DNA from: a virus
IMG/VR virus record: IMGVR_UViG_3300034418_008524
Location: 1 to 25,299 of that record
DNA: 25,299 bases
Reading direction: 5' to 3' (one strand)
Part shown: in pieces, positions 2,136-14,977 of the stretch
How the letters are laid out: every line of letters begins with the position of its first letter
Position numbering within the stretch: position 1 is the first letter of the stretch
Notes under the pieces: generated by a model
The model's database searches: none
What the model saw: only the letters and a program-made list of their open reading frames with translations
What the model was told of the DNA's origin: nothing
Translations under genes and position numbers: made by a program

Positions 2136-2165
2136 TTTTTAATAATTATTTAGTTAATTTTTAAT

Positions 2166-3251
2166 TTATTTTGCCAAGTCTACTGATTCCCAATCAAAGT
2201 TTCCAGATCTGTGGTTTTTACTTTTCCTAGTTTGTTTACCAGGAGTATACACATCCTTTAGCTTTTTCTTTAAATCTTTAGTAGCTTGCGTTTTATTAGC
2301 TGTTGTTAACGCGCTAAAATCAAAATCTGAATCTAATATCTTAGCAATAGCTGCAACTTTCTTTGGATCTTGCATAGCTAAATTATACTGATATTCATAT
2401 TTTGTAGTAACAGTACCGTCTTGTAGTCTAATAGGTTCAAATATATTATTGACTAGAGACAAATCTGTTTTTCTAATAGGTATTCCAAAAACATTATTGT
2501 TTGTAGATAGTACCTGGGCTAATTCGGTTGAGGCTTCTTGAACTCTTTGGTTATAAGCTTCGCGATCTTTTGCAGCTTTTTCTTCTAATGCTTGAAGACT
2601 TTCTTGTTTTAAACTTTTTAAAGTTTGTACAGCCTCTCCGGCTTCATCTTCAAGTTTATCATTTAAAAAACTGTTTTCTACATAATCGCTGATTTTATCT
2701 TCAGAGAAAGATGTAGTTTTTCGTAACATTTCTGCTACGGCTTCTCGCTGACCTTCTTCAGTACTTACATCAAATGTATCAGTCTGTGCTGCTACTTGAG
2801 TAAACTCATTGATATTAGTACCTCCTTTTAAATAGAAGTTTAATAATGCTCGTCCTTCATCATTTAGTCTGGAGAACATATCTTCAACTATAATCTCTTG
2901 AATTTGATTACTGTTGTCTTCTAAAGCTTTTTCCCAACCTTTTGATCCTGGAGTAAATTCGTAATCATCTGGAAGCATTAAATACCCAGAATCTTTTAAG
3001 AAGCTAAAATTAGCCTCGTAAAACTCAGGAGTAAACTCGTCTTCCTCATCACCATCCTCATCATCATCCGTAGTATTTACGTCTTCATAAGGATTTTTAA
3101 TTTTATTAGGATCGTCTTCGTCTGTATCATCAGTCTCCTCAACAGGAGTATCATCTGTTTTAGCCTCTTTAGAGGAATCGTGTTGTACAAACTCGCCTGA
3201 AGTCTCATCTAAGATCCACTCCAAGCCTTCGTTAGTTTCATTATTTTCCAT
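2166..3251 (-). CDS. Acidic, coiled-coil head scaffold-like protein
   Basis: The 361-residue product has a very acidic first 75 residues, with runs of Asp and Glu (for example DEDGDEEDEF). A predicted coiled-coil rich in Glu, Lys, Gln and Ala follows near residues 195-245. The C-terminus is basic (KQTRKSKNHRSGNF). An acidic N-terminus, helical middle and basic capsid-binding tail directly upstream of the capsid gene is the standard layout of a scaffolding protein, which directs procapsid assembly and then leaves the head. I see no Ser-His-Asp protease domain fused to it, and no separate prohead protease is visible in this window. The call is from architecture and position, not from a recognised family. 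Confidence 0.6.
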   Translation of the reverse strand: MENNETNEGLEWILDETSGEFVQHDSSKEAKTDDTPVEETDDTDEDDPNKIKNPYEDVNTTDDDEDGDEEDEFTPEFYEANFSFLKDSGYLMLPDDYEFTPGSKGWEKALEDNSNQIQEIIVEDMFSRLNDEGRALLNFYLKGGTNINEFTQVAAQTDTFDVSTEEGQREAVAEMLRKTTSFSEDKISDYVENSFLNDKLEDEAGEAVQTLKSLKQESLQALEEKAAKDREAYNQRVQEASTELAQVLSTNNNVFGIPIRKTDLSLVNNIFEPIRLQDGTVTTKYEYQYNLAMQDPKKVAAIAKILDSDFDFSALTTANKTQATKDLKKKLKDVYTPGKQTRKSKNHRSGNFDWESVDLAK

Positions 3252-3303: not shown

Positions 3304-3645
3304 TTATCTCTCTTTAATATGGCTCTTTTTCTCTAGAGTCCACAGTTCATAATTCAAATTTCCTGTTTCGTGGTAAGATTCTATGATTTCTAGTATCAAA
3401 TTATCTAGTTCAGAATCTTTTTCAACTACTATCAAAAAATCTTCTAGTACGTATAGTATTTCTATAGTGTGTGTGTCCGCGGATACTTTTAAAAGTTTAT
3501 TACAAAGAGCTTTAGTCAGTTTTAGGTTTTTGTTAATACGGGATACCCTCTCCCTTTTAGTTTCTTTTTTAATATGTTTCTTAGGTTTGTAAATCTTTAC
3601 TTTACGTACGTTTTCACGCCTGAGGAATTTGTTGATGTCCTGCAT
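3304..3645 (-). CDS. Small basic hypothetical protein overlapping the 3' end of groEL
   Basis: This 113-residue protein has a strongly basic N-terminal third (KVKIYKPKKHIKKETKRER) and an acidic, helical C-terminal half. Its ATG lies inside groEL: the two genes share 32 nt in different frames, which suggests translational coupling. A basic first half could bind DNA, RNA or an acidic partner such as the scaffold encoded next. I recognise no family. The overlap and continuous operon spacing support it as a real gene. Confidence 0.65.
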   Translation of the reverse strand: MQDINKFLRRENVRKVKIYKPKKHIKKETKRERVSRINKNLKLTKALCNKLLKVSADTHTIEILYVLEDFLIVVEKDSELDNLILEIIESYHETGNLNYELWTLEKKSHIKER

Positions 3646-5221
3646 TATTAAAATTGGTTATAATAGTAACTTCTGTAGTAAGTAACAGGCTAGCAATACT
3701 TACAGCATTTTCTAGTGCGATACGGCTTACTTTAACAGGATCGATTACACCCGCGTCAATTAAATTTTCGAATTTCTCTGTTTTAGCATTAAATCCATGG
3801 TTACGTTTATTGCGTTTAACACGGTCTAAGACTGCTGAACTTTCTAATCCGGCATTATCTACTATAATACGTAATGGCATTTCTAAAGCAGTACGCACAA
3901 TCTCTATACCTCTAGCTTCATCAGAATTTAGTACGCTAAGTTTATTCAATCCTGTACTAGCTCTTATATAAGCAACTCCACCACCTGAGACAATACCTTC
4001 ATCTAAAGCTGCTCGCGTAGCATTTAAAGCATCTTCTATACGGTCACGCTTCTCTCTAATCTCTACAGTATTAGCTCCGCCTACACTAATGACGGCTACA
4101 CCACCGCTAAGTTTAGCTAATCTTTCATGAAGTTTATCGGTATCATAACCAAACTCTTCTGAGCCTATTTGAGCCTTAATCTCTTCAATTCTATCTAATA
4201 CTCTAGTATTTCTATCATTAACTACAATAGTACAGTCATCTCTAGTTACTACAATACGGTCAGCTTTTCCTAAATGGGCTAATTGCGTGTCTTTAATATG
4301 CATACCTTTAGACTCCGCAATAACATAACCATCAGTAAGACATGCTATGTCTTCCATTACTTGCTTACGCCTATCCGCATAATTAGGAGCACCAACCACA
4401 CAGGTCTGTATAACACCCCTCAAATGATTCTGTATTAATGTAGCCATAACTACACCGCCTATATCAGAAGCAATTAATAATAAGGGTTTGCCTTCTTGAC
4501 TAATAGATTCTAATAATCTTAGAATATGATTGATTTCCAATATCTTATCTTCACATAAAAGAATATATGGATTTTCAAGAATACATTTCTGAGACTGCTT
4601 ATCTGTTATAAAATGAGGCGATTCGTATCCTCTAGGAAAAGACATACCATCTACTTTATTAATAACTGTCTGCGAAGTCTTATTCTCATCTACGGTAACT
4701 ACTCCGTTAGTCCCTACGGAATTAATTGCGTCAAATACAAGTTGTCCAACTTCTTGTTCATTATTTGCTGAGATAGTTGCTATATCTAAAATCTTAGCCT
4801 CATCGTCAATAACTTCGGTAATAAGTTTAAGATTACTTACTACATGTTTGACTGCTTTATCCATACCGCGTTTTAAATCAATTGGATTAGACCCGTTCGC
4901 AATACTTTTTAAGCCTTCTGTAAACATTGATTGTGCTAAGACTGTAGCAGTAGTTGTACCGTCTCCGGCTAAACTATTTGTTTTAGAGGCTACCTCTTTT
5001 ACCATTTGGGCCCCCATGTCTTCAACACTATCTTCTAAATTAATTTCTCTAGCGACAGTAACACCATCTTTAGTAATGTGGGGCATACTGCCAGGTTTTT
5101 GAATAATTACATTTCTACCTCTAGGGCCTAATGTAACTTTTACAGCATTAGCTAGTGTGTCTACACCTTTCTTTAGCTTACTGCGAGCTTCTTCATTAAA
5201 GAATACTTCTTTGTACGTCAT
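3614..5221 (-). CDS. groEL: Phage-encoded GroEL chaperonin (Hsp60)
   Basis: This 535-residue protein is a full-length group I chaperonin, an ATP-driven barrel that folds proteins, here most likely phage head proteins. Hallmarks sit at E. coli-equivalent positions: LGPRGRNV (31-38), ITKDG with Asp52, GDGTTT (86-91) with Asp87, ISANN (150-154), and RIEDAL, whose Asp397 matches catalytic Asp398. The GIVSGGG loop is near 409-415. In the substrate-binding apical domain Tyr199 and Phe204 are kept, while the usual Tyr203 is His. The C-terminus ends without the Gly-Gly-Met tail of cellular GroEL. The gene sits 2 nt after the portal gene inside the head operon. A GroES-like gene lies about 5.6 kb upstream in the same operon. 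Confidence 0.97.
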   Translation of the reverse strand: MTYKEVFFNEEARSKLKKGVDTLANAVKVTLGPRGRNVIIQKPGSMPHITKDGVTVAREINLEDSVEDMGAQMVKEVASKTNSLAGDGTTTATVLAQSMFTEGLKSIANGSNPIDLKRGMDKAVKHVVSNLKLITEVIDDEAKILDIATISANNEQEVGQLVFDAINSVGTNGVVTVDENKTSQTVINKVDGMSFPRGYESPHFITDKQSQKCILENPYILLCEDKILEINHILRLLESISQEGKPLLLIASDIGGVVMATLIQNHLRGVIQTCVVGAPNYADRRKQVMEDIACLTDGYVIAESKGMHIKDTQLAHLGKADRIVVTRDDCTIVVNDRNTRVLDRIEEIKAQIGSEEFGYDTDKLHERLAKLSGGVAVISVGGANTVEIREKRDRIEDALNATRAALDEGIVSGGGVAYIRASTGLNKLSVLNSDEARGIEIVRTALEMPLRIIVDNAGLESSAVLDRVKRNKRNHGFNAKTEKFENLIDAGVIDPVKVSRIALENAVSIASLLLTTEVTIITNFNNAGHQQIPQA

Positions 5222-10646: not shown

Positions 10647-10827
10647 TATTATTCTGTTCAGAACCTGTAGCCTGTAGAAACTCTTCAATCTCTTTCATAC
10701 CTTCAGATCCGTACGTTTTGTAAATTTTAGTGTATAGATTCAATAGTTTACGCCTACGTCTATACTGTTCCATAGTCTCCCCATCCTGTCTAGCTGGAGA
10801 TGTAGCGTTATATTCAGTCTTCTTCAT
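10528..10827 (-). CDS. Small hypothetical protein with low-complexity acidic tail
   Basis: The 99-residue product has a basic helical first half (EQYRRRRKLLNLYTKIYKTY). The second half is low-complexity and rich in Gly, Thr, Ser, Asp and Glu. Its start overlaps the GroES-like gene by 14 nt. Its 3' third is read in a second frame by the next gene. The overlap DNA is visibly richer in GC than the surroundings, as expected when two frames are constrained. The disordered tail may exist only to tolerate the overlapping frame. No family is recognised. Confidence 0.6.
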   Translation of the reverse strand: MKKTEYNATSPARQDGETMEQYRRRRKLLNLYTKIYKTYGSEGMKEIEEFLQATGSEQNNNGRIEKLKLSTGPSTDDAGEQSETDNGRTDTGEPLIGDG

Positions 10828-11308
10828 TCCAAACTACTTGTATATATGACTCAGGTATTAAGAAAAAGTTTCCTTCATCTTCCCCTTTTATAATAGTAGG
10901 AACATATTGCATAGCCATTAAGCTGTTAGTGGCTTTAACATCAATCATAGTTCCTCTAGTATACTTTGTTGTAACACCATCTCCTGTTGAAATAACTACA
11001 GCTCTAGTAGTGAGCTCTTGTTCTTTTAGCTTAGGTATAAGTTTTTCACCAGAATCACTGGGAATTAACTCAATAGAAGGAATTATAATATTACCTGTAG
11101 TTATAGGTATTAAAAATCTAACTAATAGATTATTACCTTTAATGGTAATCTTATCTACAAAGTCTGGTAATTCGGTTACTAATCGTTTGTTATACTCGCC
11201 AGGCGTAATCTTATCTAATTTTACTTCTGTGCTAGCCTTAACAGTTTCCATACTCTCTTCTTTATTTAAAGAAATAGAATGGTTTCTTTTATCATAATCT
11301 TTATTCAT
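10814..11308 (-). CDS. GroES-like co-chaperonin
   Basis: The 164-residue product carries a GroES-type beta-barrel after an extra 50-residue N-terminus. NNLLVRFLIP (59-68) matches the first barrel strand. GNIIIPS (72-78) matches the mobile-loop hydrophobic tripeptide of GroES (commonly GGIIIPD). RAVVISTGDG (102-111) matches the VVAVGPG strand, and NFFLIPESYIQVVW (147-160) matches the C-terminal strand (VLIMSESDILAIV in E. coli). The segment after the mobile loop is longer than in host GroES. Co-chaperonins cap GroEL during folding; T4 gp31 is the known phage precedent and helps GroEL fold the capsid protein. The partner is probably the phage GroEL in the same operon. Confidence 0.82.
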   Translation of the reverse strand: MNKDYDKRNHSISLNKEESMETVKASTEVKLDKITPGEYNKRLVTELPDFVDKITIKGNNLLVRFLIPITTGNIIIPSIELIPSDSGEKLIPKLKEQELTTRAVVISTGDGVTTKYTRGTMIDVKATNSLMAMQYVPTIIKGEDEGNFFLIPESYIQVVWNEED

Positions 11309-12461: not shown

Positions 12462-12766
12462 ATTTATCTCAGTTTTTGATAGGCATACCTATCCCCTTTG
12501 GTGGTTTCTCTTTAATTTAGAATTTCGGAATAGCCAGTGCTACTTTTCAGTTACCCGAGGATGATAATACGCTGTAAACTCAGCAGAAATTATCGGTTTC
12601 TAATCCATCCTCACGCCCATTCTTTATATCTAAACAATTTGTGTTACTATTGGGGACAACTCCATCACTATGTTGATTCTTAGTTTCATAATCTGTGATT
12701 TACAACCCAACTTCTGATCCTATAACTACCTTTCGGCCCTCTAGGATGATTGGTGATAAACCAGTA
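12462..12766 (-). promoter_or_regulatory. Long structured 5' leader RNA of the head operon
   Basis: Between the predicted transcription start (about 12766) and the first ATG (12461) lie about 300 nt without a credible gene. By eye the minus-strand RNA folds into at least four elements. One is a hairpin with CCAA/TTGG and ATCCTA/TAGGAT stems capped by a GAAA tetraloop (12707-12753). Another is a nested stem GAGGAT/ATCCTC, GATAAT/ATTATC, GCTG/CAGC (12557-12612). There is a TAGC-ACTG-GCTA hairpin near 12530, and GATAGG/CCTATC lies beside the start codon (12478-12493). It may control, stabilise or process the late transcript. Confidence 0.5.
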
Positions 12767-12772
12767 ACGATG

Positions 12773-12803
12773 CAAAGATACAAAAAAATATGTAAAAAAC
12801 CAA
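12773..12803 (-). promoter_or_regulatory. Bacteroidota-type promoter for the head operon
   Basis: On the minus strand TTG (12801-12803) is followed after exactly 20 nt by TATCTTTG (12773-12780). This matches the Bacteroidota consensus TTTG/TTG, 19-23 nt, TAnnTTTG used by the primary sigma factor. Transcription would start near 12766. It implies that the host RNA polymerase reads this operon. Confidence 0.75.
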
Positions 12804-12953
12804 CCATATTTAACATAAAATATTAAAGAAAAGTAAGATTGTTGTATAATATGGCGAAAGTTGAAATTTTTTTTCAAATTTTTTTTTCAAAATTTTTGTA
12901 AATCTGTGTGTTTAGGTACCTCCTTATAAAAAACCCGTGTGCAGACTGGCCAT

Positions 12954-12987
12954 TTTTTGAAGGCGGTAGCCTGATAAATAAATTTTT
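12954..12987 (+). promoter_or_regulatory. Weak candidate promoter for the rightward gene at 13009
   Basis: TTTTTTG (12954-12960) and TAAATTTT (12980-12987) are spaced by 19 nt, close to the Bacteroidota pattern but with a mismatch at the last base of the -7 box. A short A-rich leader would lead to the ATG at 13009. Upstream (12841-12953) is T/A homopolymer-rich DNA with no gene. Confidence 0.3.
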
Positions 12988-13008
12988 AAACAAAAAAACA
13001 GTAATCTT

Positions 13009-13626
13009 ATGGTAACAATTATTAGCGCAACGCAAAGCGATAAAGCGTATCCTGATTTAAATAATCCAGGACAGGAACAAAAGCCTTACATCATCAAGTG
13101 TAAAGCTACTGCAAGTAGCAGTACAAATCGTAACTCTGCATTCTTTGAAATGATTGGTGCAAGTGGCTCTACATTTACACCAAGTATGTTTATCAACGAA
13201 GATCGTATTCAACGTGTGTTGGATAAGTTCGAAGCTGACACTGTTGAACAACTGGTTGGTAAGGAATTTGACACGCTTGGCGCACGATTTGAAGTTATGC
13301 ACCCTAATGCACCACAGTATGATGATACTGAAGCTGGTGTTGGTGGTTGGTATGCAAGCCGTGATAATGAAGATGTTCTCTTCCGTCTGTCTATCGTGCC
13401 TATCGAAGACGCTCGCGTTGTACAGTATGGTACAGAAGAAGGTGTTGAGAACCCATTCGAGTTAGGAAACCAAACCAAACCTGAAGCAAAATCTAACACA
13501 GATTATGCATCTATGCGAGTTAACGACCTAAAGGCGTTAATTACCGATGAACTTGGTGCTGATTCGCTTAAGGGTGTTTCCGGTAAAGCTGCGTTGGTTG
13601 CGCTTGCGGAAGAAGAGATAGGGTAA
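13009..13626 (+). CDS. Probably abundant phage protein with SAP/HeH-like C-terminal domain
   Basis: The 205-residue product has an N-terminal domain of unknown type (about 1-150). A Pro/Lys/Asn-rich linker follows. The C-terminal 35-40 residues (MRVNDLKALITDELGADSL...) resemble the small helix-extended-helix SAP/HeH/Rho-N DNA- or RNA-binding fold. The gene is clearly richer in GC and in preferred-looking codons (GGT, CGT, GAA, AAC) than its neighbours. It is followed directly by a strong terminator, so it is a single-gene transcript. Both points suggest high expression. A single-stranded DNA-binding or nucleoid protein is possible, but I recognise no family for the main domain. Confidence 0.75.
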   Translation: MVTIISATQSDKAYPDLNNPGQEQKPYIIKCKATASSSTNRNSAFFEMIGASGSTFTPSMFINEDRIQRVLDKFEADTVEQLVGKEFDTLGARFEVMHPNAPQYDDTEAGVGGWYASRDNEDVLFRLSIVPIEDARVVQYGTEEGVENPFELGNQTKPEAKSNTDYASMRVNDLKALITDELGADSLKGVSGKAALVALAEEEIG

Positions 13627-13650
13627 CAATGGACCCTTGCAAACCATATA

Positions 13651-13692
13651 GGGGAGATAGGAGCTGTAACACAGTTTCTATCCCTCTTTTTT
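13651..13692 (+). terminator. Rho-independent terminator after the 13009 gene
   Basis: The stem pairs GGGG(A)GATAG (13651-13660) with CTATCCCTC (13678-13686), with one bulged A and one G-U pair. An inner CTGT-AAC-ACAG hairpin lies inside, and a run of six T follows. It is 25 nt past the stop codon. Confidence 0.8.
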
Positions 13693-14470
13693 AATTCCCT
13701 TGCTCGTTGGATTGAAAGTTTTCTACTATAACTCACATTTCTCACCACATCTCCTTATAACTCAGTGTTATTGGGGGTTGAGAGAGATTATATGTTTTGG
13801 TAGCAGGAACTATCCATACCTTTTTCTACTTATTCTCACAAATACAAATTCACCAAGCTATTAATATATAGCCTAAACTACATAATTAATTGGTTTATCC
13901 ATATAACCTTCGTGTCAGCGTAAAATAATGGTTGAGATGCTGTCTCTTTCAGCACATGCCCTGCTTTTATACTCAAGTTCAAGGGATTAAACATGGTTGT
14001 AAACTGAGTACTGGTGGTTCCGGACAAAACCACAGGGTGATGCTATTTTTAGTATCACTGACATGGTAGATTAATGGTGTTGCCTTGCAATACGCTTAGT
14101 TTGTGGAATGAATGCTGGCCGTAAGGCAGATCGGCGTTCATGATGAAACTTACTGAGAATGTTAATGACTTATTTATGTAAGCATTGATGTATTAAGTAC
14201 CATATTGTCTAAACAAAAGCCTTTATCTCGGAGCGTGAGCAGACGTGAAGGTCACTAGCATAAGGTGAACAACAATGCGGCCCTAGATGCGGGGTATAGG
14301 GCGGAAATAGCACACTATGTAGGAAACCGTCCATTTTTAACAAAAAACTCTCATCCAATTGCAGGAGAATCTAAGATGCTTCGGCACACAATAGTGGCAA
14401 ATAAAAATAGATTGCCATAGTCAAGGATTGCAACCTTGTGAGAGTTCATCTTTAAACCCTTTAAATATTA
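13693..14470 (+). ncRNA. Candidate large structured non-coding RNA
   Basis: These 780 bases hold no ORF of note. From about 13855 on they contain a dense row of stems. They are GCTAT/ATAGC (13857-13872), TGCTG/CAGCA (13938-13954), and TACTCA(A)GTT/AACTGAGTA (13970-14010). Next come GTGGTT/AACCAC (14014-14033), a 9-bp GTGATGCTA/TAGTATCAC (14037-14058), and a 7-bp stem with a CTT loop (14077-14093). An 8-bp ATGAATGC/GCGTTCAT (14108-14141) is capped by a GCC-GTAA-GGC tetraloop hairpin. A long-range GCATTG/CAATGC (14182/14273) and GCCCTA/TAGGGC (14280-14302) follow. Last is a closed multi-arm domain at 14346-14446. GC is higher than in nearby genes. Strand is inferred from context. Size and style recall the GOLLD and ROOL large RNAs of phages, but I cannot assign a class. 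Confidence 0.6.
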
Positions 14471-14474
14471 TATT

Positions 14475-14678
14475 ATGAAAGCCTTACAAGCATTTGCTTT
14501 TTTTGGAGTTTTAATTTTAGGATGTGTTGTACATCTATTATCTTTCTTTTTTGTTGGAGGTGATGGAAGAGAATTATACAATCTACAAGATTATTCAATT
14601 CCTGGGATTGTATTTTTCATTTTATATTACACTATAATTATCTGTCTAGCATATATTGCTGCAGATGATGTTGAATAA
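14475..14678 (+). CDS. Small two-helix membrane protein
   Basis: The 67-residue product has two hydrophobic segments: about 5-30 (AFAFFGVLILGCVVHLLSFFF) and about 42-62 (IPGIVFFILYYTIIICLAYIA). A short polar loop joins them and the tail is acidic. It is probably a host inner-membrane protein. It lies between two structured RNA stretches, starts with ATG in the A/T-rich context common here, and has no Shine-Dalgarno. Function unknown. Confidence 0.65.
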   Translation: MKALQAFAFFGVLILGCVVHLLSFFFVGGDGRELYNLQDYSIPGIVFFILYYTIIICLAYIAADDVE

Positions 14679-14702
14679 TTAGAATGGTGGCGACTAGCCT
14701 AG

Positions 14703-14884
14703 TACAGTTAAAGTAAGAATAGCTGTATGAAACCCAAATCTTATATGTCAATAAGATTATGGACTAAATGTTCTTGCAACAGGTTGATTCTGTTATCCAA
14801 TCATCTTTAGAAGAATGTACAATCTTGTAGAGCTCTGAGAGTTACAAAAAGTAAAAAGGGTATATTATAGCTGACAACTATAAT
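14703..14884 (+). ncRNA. Second structured RNA stretch or structured 5' leader
   Basis: The 299 nt between genes contain TACAG/CTGTA (14703-14727) and a perfect 8-bp AATCTTAT/ATAAGATT with a 6-nt loop (14737-14758). ATGTTCTT/AAGAATGT (14768/14811, two G-U pairs) encloses AACAG/CTGTT (14778-14794). A perfect 7-bp ATTATAG/CTATAAT (14864-14884) follows. They could be a separate RNA or the leader of the gene at 14978. Strand is inferred. Confidence 0.45.
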
Positions 14885-14977
14885 GAATTATTCCCAAGTG
14901 CCAATGAAACAAGTAAACAACTGCTTGTGAAAGGGTTTTATAATGACAGAGGATTTTTAAATTTTAAATTAAACACT

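Follow-up and report, generated by a model that had tools for sequence, protein, structure and literature searches.

The 25,299-nt stretch of viral DNA analyzed here (the window; IMG/VR record IMGVR_UViG_3300034418_008524) leaves about 780 bp between two genes, 13693-14470, that an earlier note had taken from the letters alone for a large structured RNA between phage genes. What does this stretch encode, and is it a single RNA or several?

Position and coding content of the locus

The 25.3-kb record is a viral fragment that its sequence assigns to a crAss-like (Bacteroidota-type) phage. The minus-strand genes encode the major head protein, portal and terminase, with PHROGs common to crAss-like and Flavobacterium/Cellulophaga phages, and the same block encodes GroEL, whose gene lies between the portal and head genes (3614-5221, minus strand). 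A further minus-strand protein (10814-11308) gives a weak, sub-threshold match to GroES (Cpn10). The plus-strand block begins at 13009, includes ribonucleotide reductase and diverges from the minus-strand block at 12462-13008; by likeness to crAss-like phages it may be called the early arm, a label by analogy. The putative RNA locus lies on this arm, just beyond the divergent intergenic region (Table 1). The divergent DNA is itself conserved with several relatives (nhmmer E = 9e-9 for L005 and 4e-6 for L024; 84% over 43 nt against G006).

Table 1. Features of the locus in the window and of the corresponding early arms in relatives (L numbers).
Feature	Position	Strand	Basis or description
First early-arm gene, 205 aa, orphan	13009-13626	+	ORF list; directly 5' of the RNA
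Intrinsic terminator	13656-13690	+	Between 205-aa gene and RNA; 12-bp stem 13656-13682, 3-nt loop, then CCTCTTTTTT
RNA locus, whole	13693-14449	+	Probable limits: from the terminator to the next gene's leader
Domain A	13706-13816	+	Long imperfect stem-loop; z = -2.6
CCTTATAACTC	13753-13763	+	Candidate long-range partner of motif C (AUAAGG); weak
Domain B	14060-14209	+	Closed multibranch, three hairpins, one with GUAA tetraloop; MFE = centroid
Motif C, CACTAGCATAAGGTGAACAACAATG	14253-14277	+	Conserved in other crAss-like phages
Domain D, tRNA-shaped	14346-14446	+	8-bp acceptor-like stem, two further hairpins; z = -2.7
Next gene, 67 aa, membrane-protein-like	14475-14678	+	ORF list
GOLLD	L028 1394-1768; L029 2257-2639; L033 94-475; L045 1743-2133; L052 509-884; L068 1333-1730	-	Rfam
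Pistol ribozymes	L028 2077-2143; L033 837-912; L038 1222-1283	-	Rfam
Hatchet ribozyme	L074 352-564	-	Rfam
Phage tmRNAs	L029 202-612; L024 629-999; L139 6285-6768	-	

The genes flanking the RNA are complete and unrelated to each other. The 205-aa gene has no Pfam, PHROG or tblastn match and shows no homology with the 176-aa gene that precedes GOLLD in relatives; the 67-aa gene matches no family. Homologues of the 205-aa and 234-aa neighbor proteins were sought in named phages and in relatives and none was found, and ribonucleotide reductase, used as query for closer relatives, returned only the same phage. Past the 67-aa gene there is a second ORF-less stretch of about 300 nt (14679-14977), for which no homologue was found; the segment 14626-14775 folds with a z of -3.6.

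The stretch is noncoding, as the earlier note had it: under table 11, 13693-14470 contains no ORF of at least 60 aa on either strand, the longest being 54 aa. Coding under alternative codes was rejected for lack of a convincing gene, TAG read as glutamine giving 87 aa at most across two read-through stops and table 4 (TGA as sense) adding nothing new. Nor was there any coding or known intron match, which the note had named as counter-evidence. GC content had been described as higher than in nearby genes; the value for the region (38.2%; whole window, 33.4%) is above that of the downstream gene (29.7%) but below that of the upstream gene (42.7%).

The start right after a strong terminator is borne out, and no 3' terminator is visible before the 67-aa gene. 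The promoter of its own that the note had thought probable did not emerge: sigma-70-like matches near the RNA are no more frequent than in shuffles, and the Bacteroidota-type -7 box TAnnTTTG is absent from 13401-14500. The RNA probably ends near 14449, with 14450-14474 forming the leader of the next gene. Its only full copy, identical at 784/784 positions, is on another contig of this phage, IMGVR_UViG_3300034374_009450, which begins exactly at the RNA 5' end (13691); the first two bases of that contig differ, perhaps because assembly broke off at a strain variant.

Predicted structure

Folding energy was compared with that of shuffled sequence, as the note had proposed. The whole region is formally better than its shuffles on the plus strand (z = -2.6, 0/150 as good; minus strand, z = -1.4), but coding segments of the same phage score lower still (z = -4.6, -3.7 and -3.6), so whole-region energy is a weak, non-discriminating argument. 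Local folding is distinct: the segment 14026-14175 (z = -5.6) is the lowest of all 150-nt segments on both strands of the contig, and domain B, with z = -5.3 (0/200 shuffles), ranks as the window's most stable local fold. The many stems listed earlier are there, helices with pair probability >0.9 in at least one folding context measuring 10 bp (14036/14059 and 14108/14141), 9 bp (14159/14191), 8 bp (14219/14252 and 14346/14446) and 7 bp. The GTAA tetraloop was correctly seen and caps the helix 14118-14127. The UUCG tetraloop is present as a string, C(UUCG)G at 14379-14384, but the predicted fold pairs those bases otherwise.

In domain D, a T-arm-like hairpin (5 bp, 7-nt loop) is stacked on the acceptor-like stem; the domain has no T-loop consensus and no CCA, and neither ARAGORN nor the Rfam tRNA model detects it. 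The best fold of the locus is rich in long-range pairing. One possible contact is between CCUUAU (13753-13758) and motif C (14260-14265), a candidate showing no covariation; the CCTTATAACTC string also occurs 3' of motif C in phage G007 and pairs with the motif in the predicted fold there. Motif C could also form GCAU-(AAGGNNAACAACA)-AUGC. The covariation check gave two pairs, the homologues being one identical copy and fragments, and on so small a basis the overall fold stands as an unproven prediction.

Recurring pieces and the GOLLD locus in relatives

A terminase alignment yielded 80 relatives; an earlier terminase-only search had given nine loci, too few. All relatives are metagenomic fragments, so a piece missing from any one contig is weak evidence. 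A 17-base string from the RNA matched seven other contigs, and motif C is identical at 25/25 positions in two distant crAss-like phages, G006/L101 and G007/L100; by our estimate, the eight-base extension of the 17-base match would arise by chance with a probability of about 1.5e-5 per contig. G008/L096 has two near-copies, with a match to the motif at 26/27 positions, and G009-G011 carry the motif as GCATAAGGNNAACAACAATG, a relaxed pattern having added L136, L138 and L139, where an ORF-less stretch of about 250 nt around the motif is conserved.

Every copy of motif C lies in ORF-less sequence, sense to the early genes in all carriers whose orientation can be judged. The terminase family is present in four carriers (G006/L101, G007/L100, G009/L136 and G010/L138), and wherever the structural module is visible the motif is on the strand opposite terminase, about 4-9 kb upstream of its gene. 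G008/L096, a fragment with replication genes, has the motif on the strand of those genes, and G011/L139 is related to G010. Motif C was absent from the records of 16 other relatives tested, among them the GOLLD carriers L028, L029, L045 and L068, and GOLLD was not found in the scanned stretches of motif C carriers. Rfam placed no fitting known family in the motif C-bearing stretches, and the sequences that surround the motif in other phages have folding energies no better than those of shuffled controls. Matches set aside were those of the pattern TGTAGGAAACCGTCC in 32 other contigs, none with further similarity; and six of motif C in bacterial genomes, in coding or gene-start sequence and judged chance, the Bacteroides match (L149) lying within a short open frame. 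Named phages held no copy of motif C, domain B or domain D.

Domain D also recurs. A model built from the window sequence alone (R2) found a homologue in G006 (L159 16868-16986; E = 0.0016 in 17 kb, unfiltered), which on L101 reads AACTCTCATCCAATTG ... CAAGG..CCTTGTGAGAGTT and folds with a z of -4.7. The two phages agree in acceptor and T-arm, and the hairpin before the T-arm is in the same place with a different sequence. Two pairs changed on both sides, a count from two sequences only that 115/500 shuffles reach. The refined model found no third copy over 1.1 Mb. No homologue was found for domain A. The domain B model gave nothing convincing over 1.3 Mb or, unfiltered, over the motif C loci, and single-sequence covariance models of domains B and D had no match in terminase relatives. 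Domain B also had a weak match in phiKZ (E = 0.04), which falls in a coding gene and was discarded.

These pieces bear on whether the locus is one RNA. Domain D precedes motif C in G006 and follows it in the window, with different spacing; circular permutation was rejected as the cause, the order of three elements not fitting. Since the order is swapped and domains A and B are without homologue, separate modules fit these data as well as one large RNA does. The locus might then consist of small RNA modules in series, each independent of the others (motif C, domain D, hairpins), in the untranslated region of an early operon; they would act in cis on translation or mRNA processing and be shuffled among crAss-like phages. 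Other short elements (ACAACTGAGTGCAGAGGG and GGTATGGGACTGAGGCCC) are found repeatedly in early arms (L051, G007 and G009-G011), ATG and tiny ORFs come after motif C, and the missing 3' terminator would suit such an arrangement. Against it are the continuous 750 nt without ORF, the terminator at the head and the long-range pairing of the best fold, and the tiny ORFs are not conserved in sequence. We regard the module explanation as possible, though not probable.

The core of motif C, AAGG(U/A)G, resembles a Shine-Dalgarno sequence. AAGGUG or AAGGAG was seen at 0/154 gene starts of these phages, so the motif is not their usual start signal. The Shine-Dalgarno reading is weakened by two bases that vary (UG, AG, GC, GU).

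In many terminase relatives, gaps of 400-1400 nt without an ORF flank the divergent region on its early side. Some are conserved among the relatives themselves, and Rfam matches account for part of the gaps. Six relatives (terminase ~44-46% identical) carry GOLLD on the same arm and strand as the window RNA (198-222 bits), in all six on the strand opposite terminase, and in L029 the layout of gene, terminator, GOLLD and next gene is that of the window. In a literature search that mostly did not extend to subscription journals, we found no paper describing GOLLD at this place in crAss-like phages or tying these phages to large structured RNAs. The note's comparison with GOLLD was apt as to place, in a way it did not foresee. 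A GOLLD diverged past Rfam recognition would explain the shared locus, strand and length class, and the conserved GOLLD sequence GAAAGGUGACUAAUG is loosely like motif C. It is nevertheless unlikely and already disfavored: RF02032, the conserved 3' core of GOLLD, is silent on the window RNA at E ≤ 10 against the high scores in relatives, nhmmer over all relatives' loci, GOLLD included, gave nothing convincing, 0 GOLLD signature strings are present, and the upstream genes are not homologous.

Other RNAs share these arms. The ribozymes of L028 and L033 lie just upstream of GOLLD, and L164 10708-10849 (minus strand) also belongs among the self-cleaving Pistol and Hatchet ribozymes of crAss-like early arms. 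A second conserved ORF-less element, ATTACAACTGAGTGCAGAGGG, occurs at L051 2906 (minus), L162 13093 and 13591 (both plus) and L164 9586 (minus), and a third, GGTATGGGACTGAGGCCC, at L164 9151 (minus), L166 14527 (minus) and L168 9510 (plus); no Rfam match covers either. Phage tmRNAs are common in the crAss-like group. Directly upstream of GOLLD in L068 is a tmRNA-like element of about 83 nt (2143-2225, minus strand), its tag domain seemingly missing.

A tmRNA or tRNA remnant or derivative, with domain D as its leftover tRNA-like end, would draw on these tmRNAs of relatives and on the acceptor/T-arm stacking. We think this very unlikely, given that neither tmRNA nor tRNA matches at E ≤ 10, that the T-loop consensus and CCA are lacking, and that domain D is separately conserved in G006 with no tmRNA neighbor at that locus. 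That the stretch is plain AT-rich intergenic DNA, or what is left of a gene, with stems due to chance, would be allowed by the whole-region energy by itself. It is scarcely credible beside the 25 nt shared without mismatch with ORF-less early-arm sequence in distant phages, the homologous domain D close by, and a local fold lower than any other in the window.

Reading of the locus and comparison with known RNAs

With moderate confidence, we read 13693-14449 as encoding a noncoding, structured RNA that runs sense to the early genes, belongs to no Rfam class and occupies the early-arm locus where related phages carry GOLLD. The best description is that this locus holds either a large noncoding phage RNA of a new class or several mobile RNA modules. 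Of the large structured RNA outside known classes that was first proposed, the noncoding nature, the blank Rfam search, the stable domain B and the two recurring pieces stand; covariation of the fold is minimal. What is added is a further large phage noncoding RNA with homologous pieces in other phages, not something categorically new.

From position and structure we infer how such an RNA might be transcribed, processed and used. Its synthesis would fall early in infection and start at a promoter of its own or of an early operon, with the terminator insulating it from the 205-aa gene. Domain D would set the 3' end, cut by host RNase P or tRNA 3'-end enzymes, and cutting would separate the downstream mRNA from a stable RNA about 650-750 nt long. 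Domains A and B may form a rigid body and motif C a working surface that docks to the host 30S subunit through its Shine-Dalgarno-like core. The RNA would then match GOLLD in function, as an abundant and structured phage RNA that acts in its own right. A more general idea, which we consider doubtful, is that the early-arm locus is a slot for large host-facing RNAs, GOLLD in some lineages and this unrelated RNA with motif C in others, with release by tRNAs or tRNA-like domains and motif C engaging the ribosome.

GOLLD, ROOL and similar large phage RNAs form RNA-only assemblies, and to our knowledge nobody has established what they do. That one lineage has GOLLD where a sister lineage has another RNA offers a comparative handle: the job they share should show in the traits common to the replacements (position, timing, motif C, tRNA-like end). 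Since Bacteroides and Flavobacterium-type hosts support the growth of some crAss-like phages, a discrete transcript and a knock-out phenotype are testable.

Among known classes, Rfam 15 gives no family within the RNA at the gathering threshold or at E ≤ 10, OLE, tRNA and tmRNA included, in line with the earlier note's reading of no known class, intron core or tmRNA; group I and II intron cores have no covariance-model match, and no gene is interrupted. With GOLLD (RF02032) the window RNA shares a large ORF-less phage RNA of 700-800 nt in total, the early-arm locus and strand, and the position after a gene with a terminator; it differs in having no GOLLD signature strings, another local architecture and a tRNA-shaped 3' domain. 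GOLLD is reported to assemble as a 14-subunit RNA cage, to bind ribosomes in pull-downs and often to lie near tRNAs (PMC12286853), a reasonable analogy for the window RNA and not evidence about it. ROOL is alike in size class and phage setting (PMC12286853), whereas the window RNA has no Rfam match at E ≤ 10 and no adjoining tRNA island. Like tRNA-like 3' domains and tRNA punctuation, domain D places an acceptor-like stem and a stacked T-arm-like hairpin at the RNA 3' end, and it shares with tRNA the shape only.

Abundantly transcribed lncRNAs are described in two other phages: an ORF-less one of ~800 nt between gp139 and gp140 of ICP1 (PMC7567579) and two of the ~800-nt class in phage K (PMC9241854). 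We found no sequence relation to them in the phage collection. They are demonstrated transcripts, whereas the window RNA is predicted from its sequence; all are ORF-less, of similar length and members of no known family.
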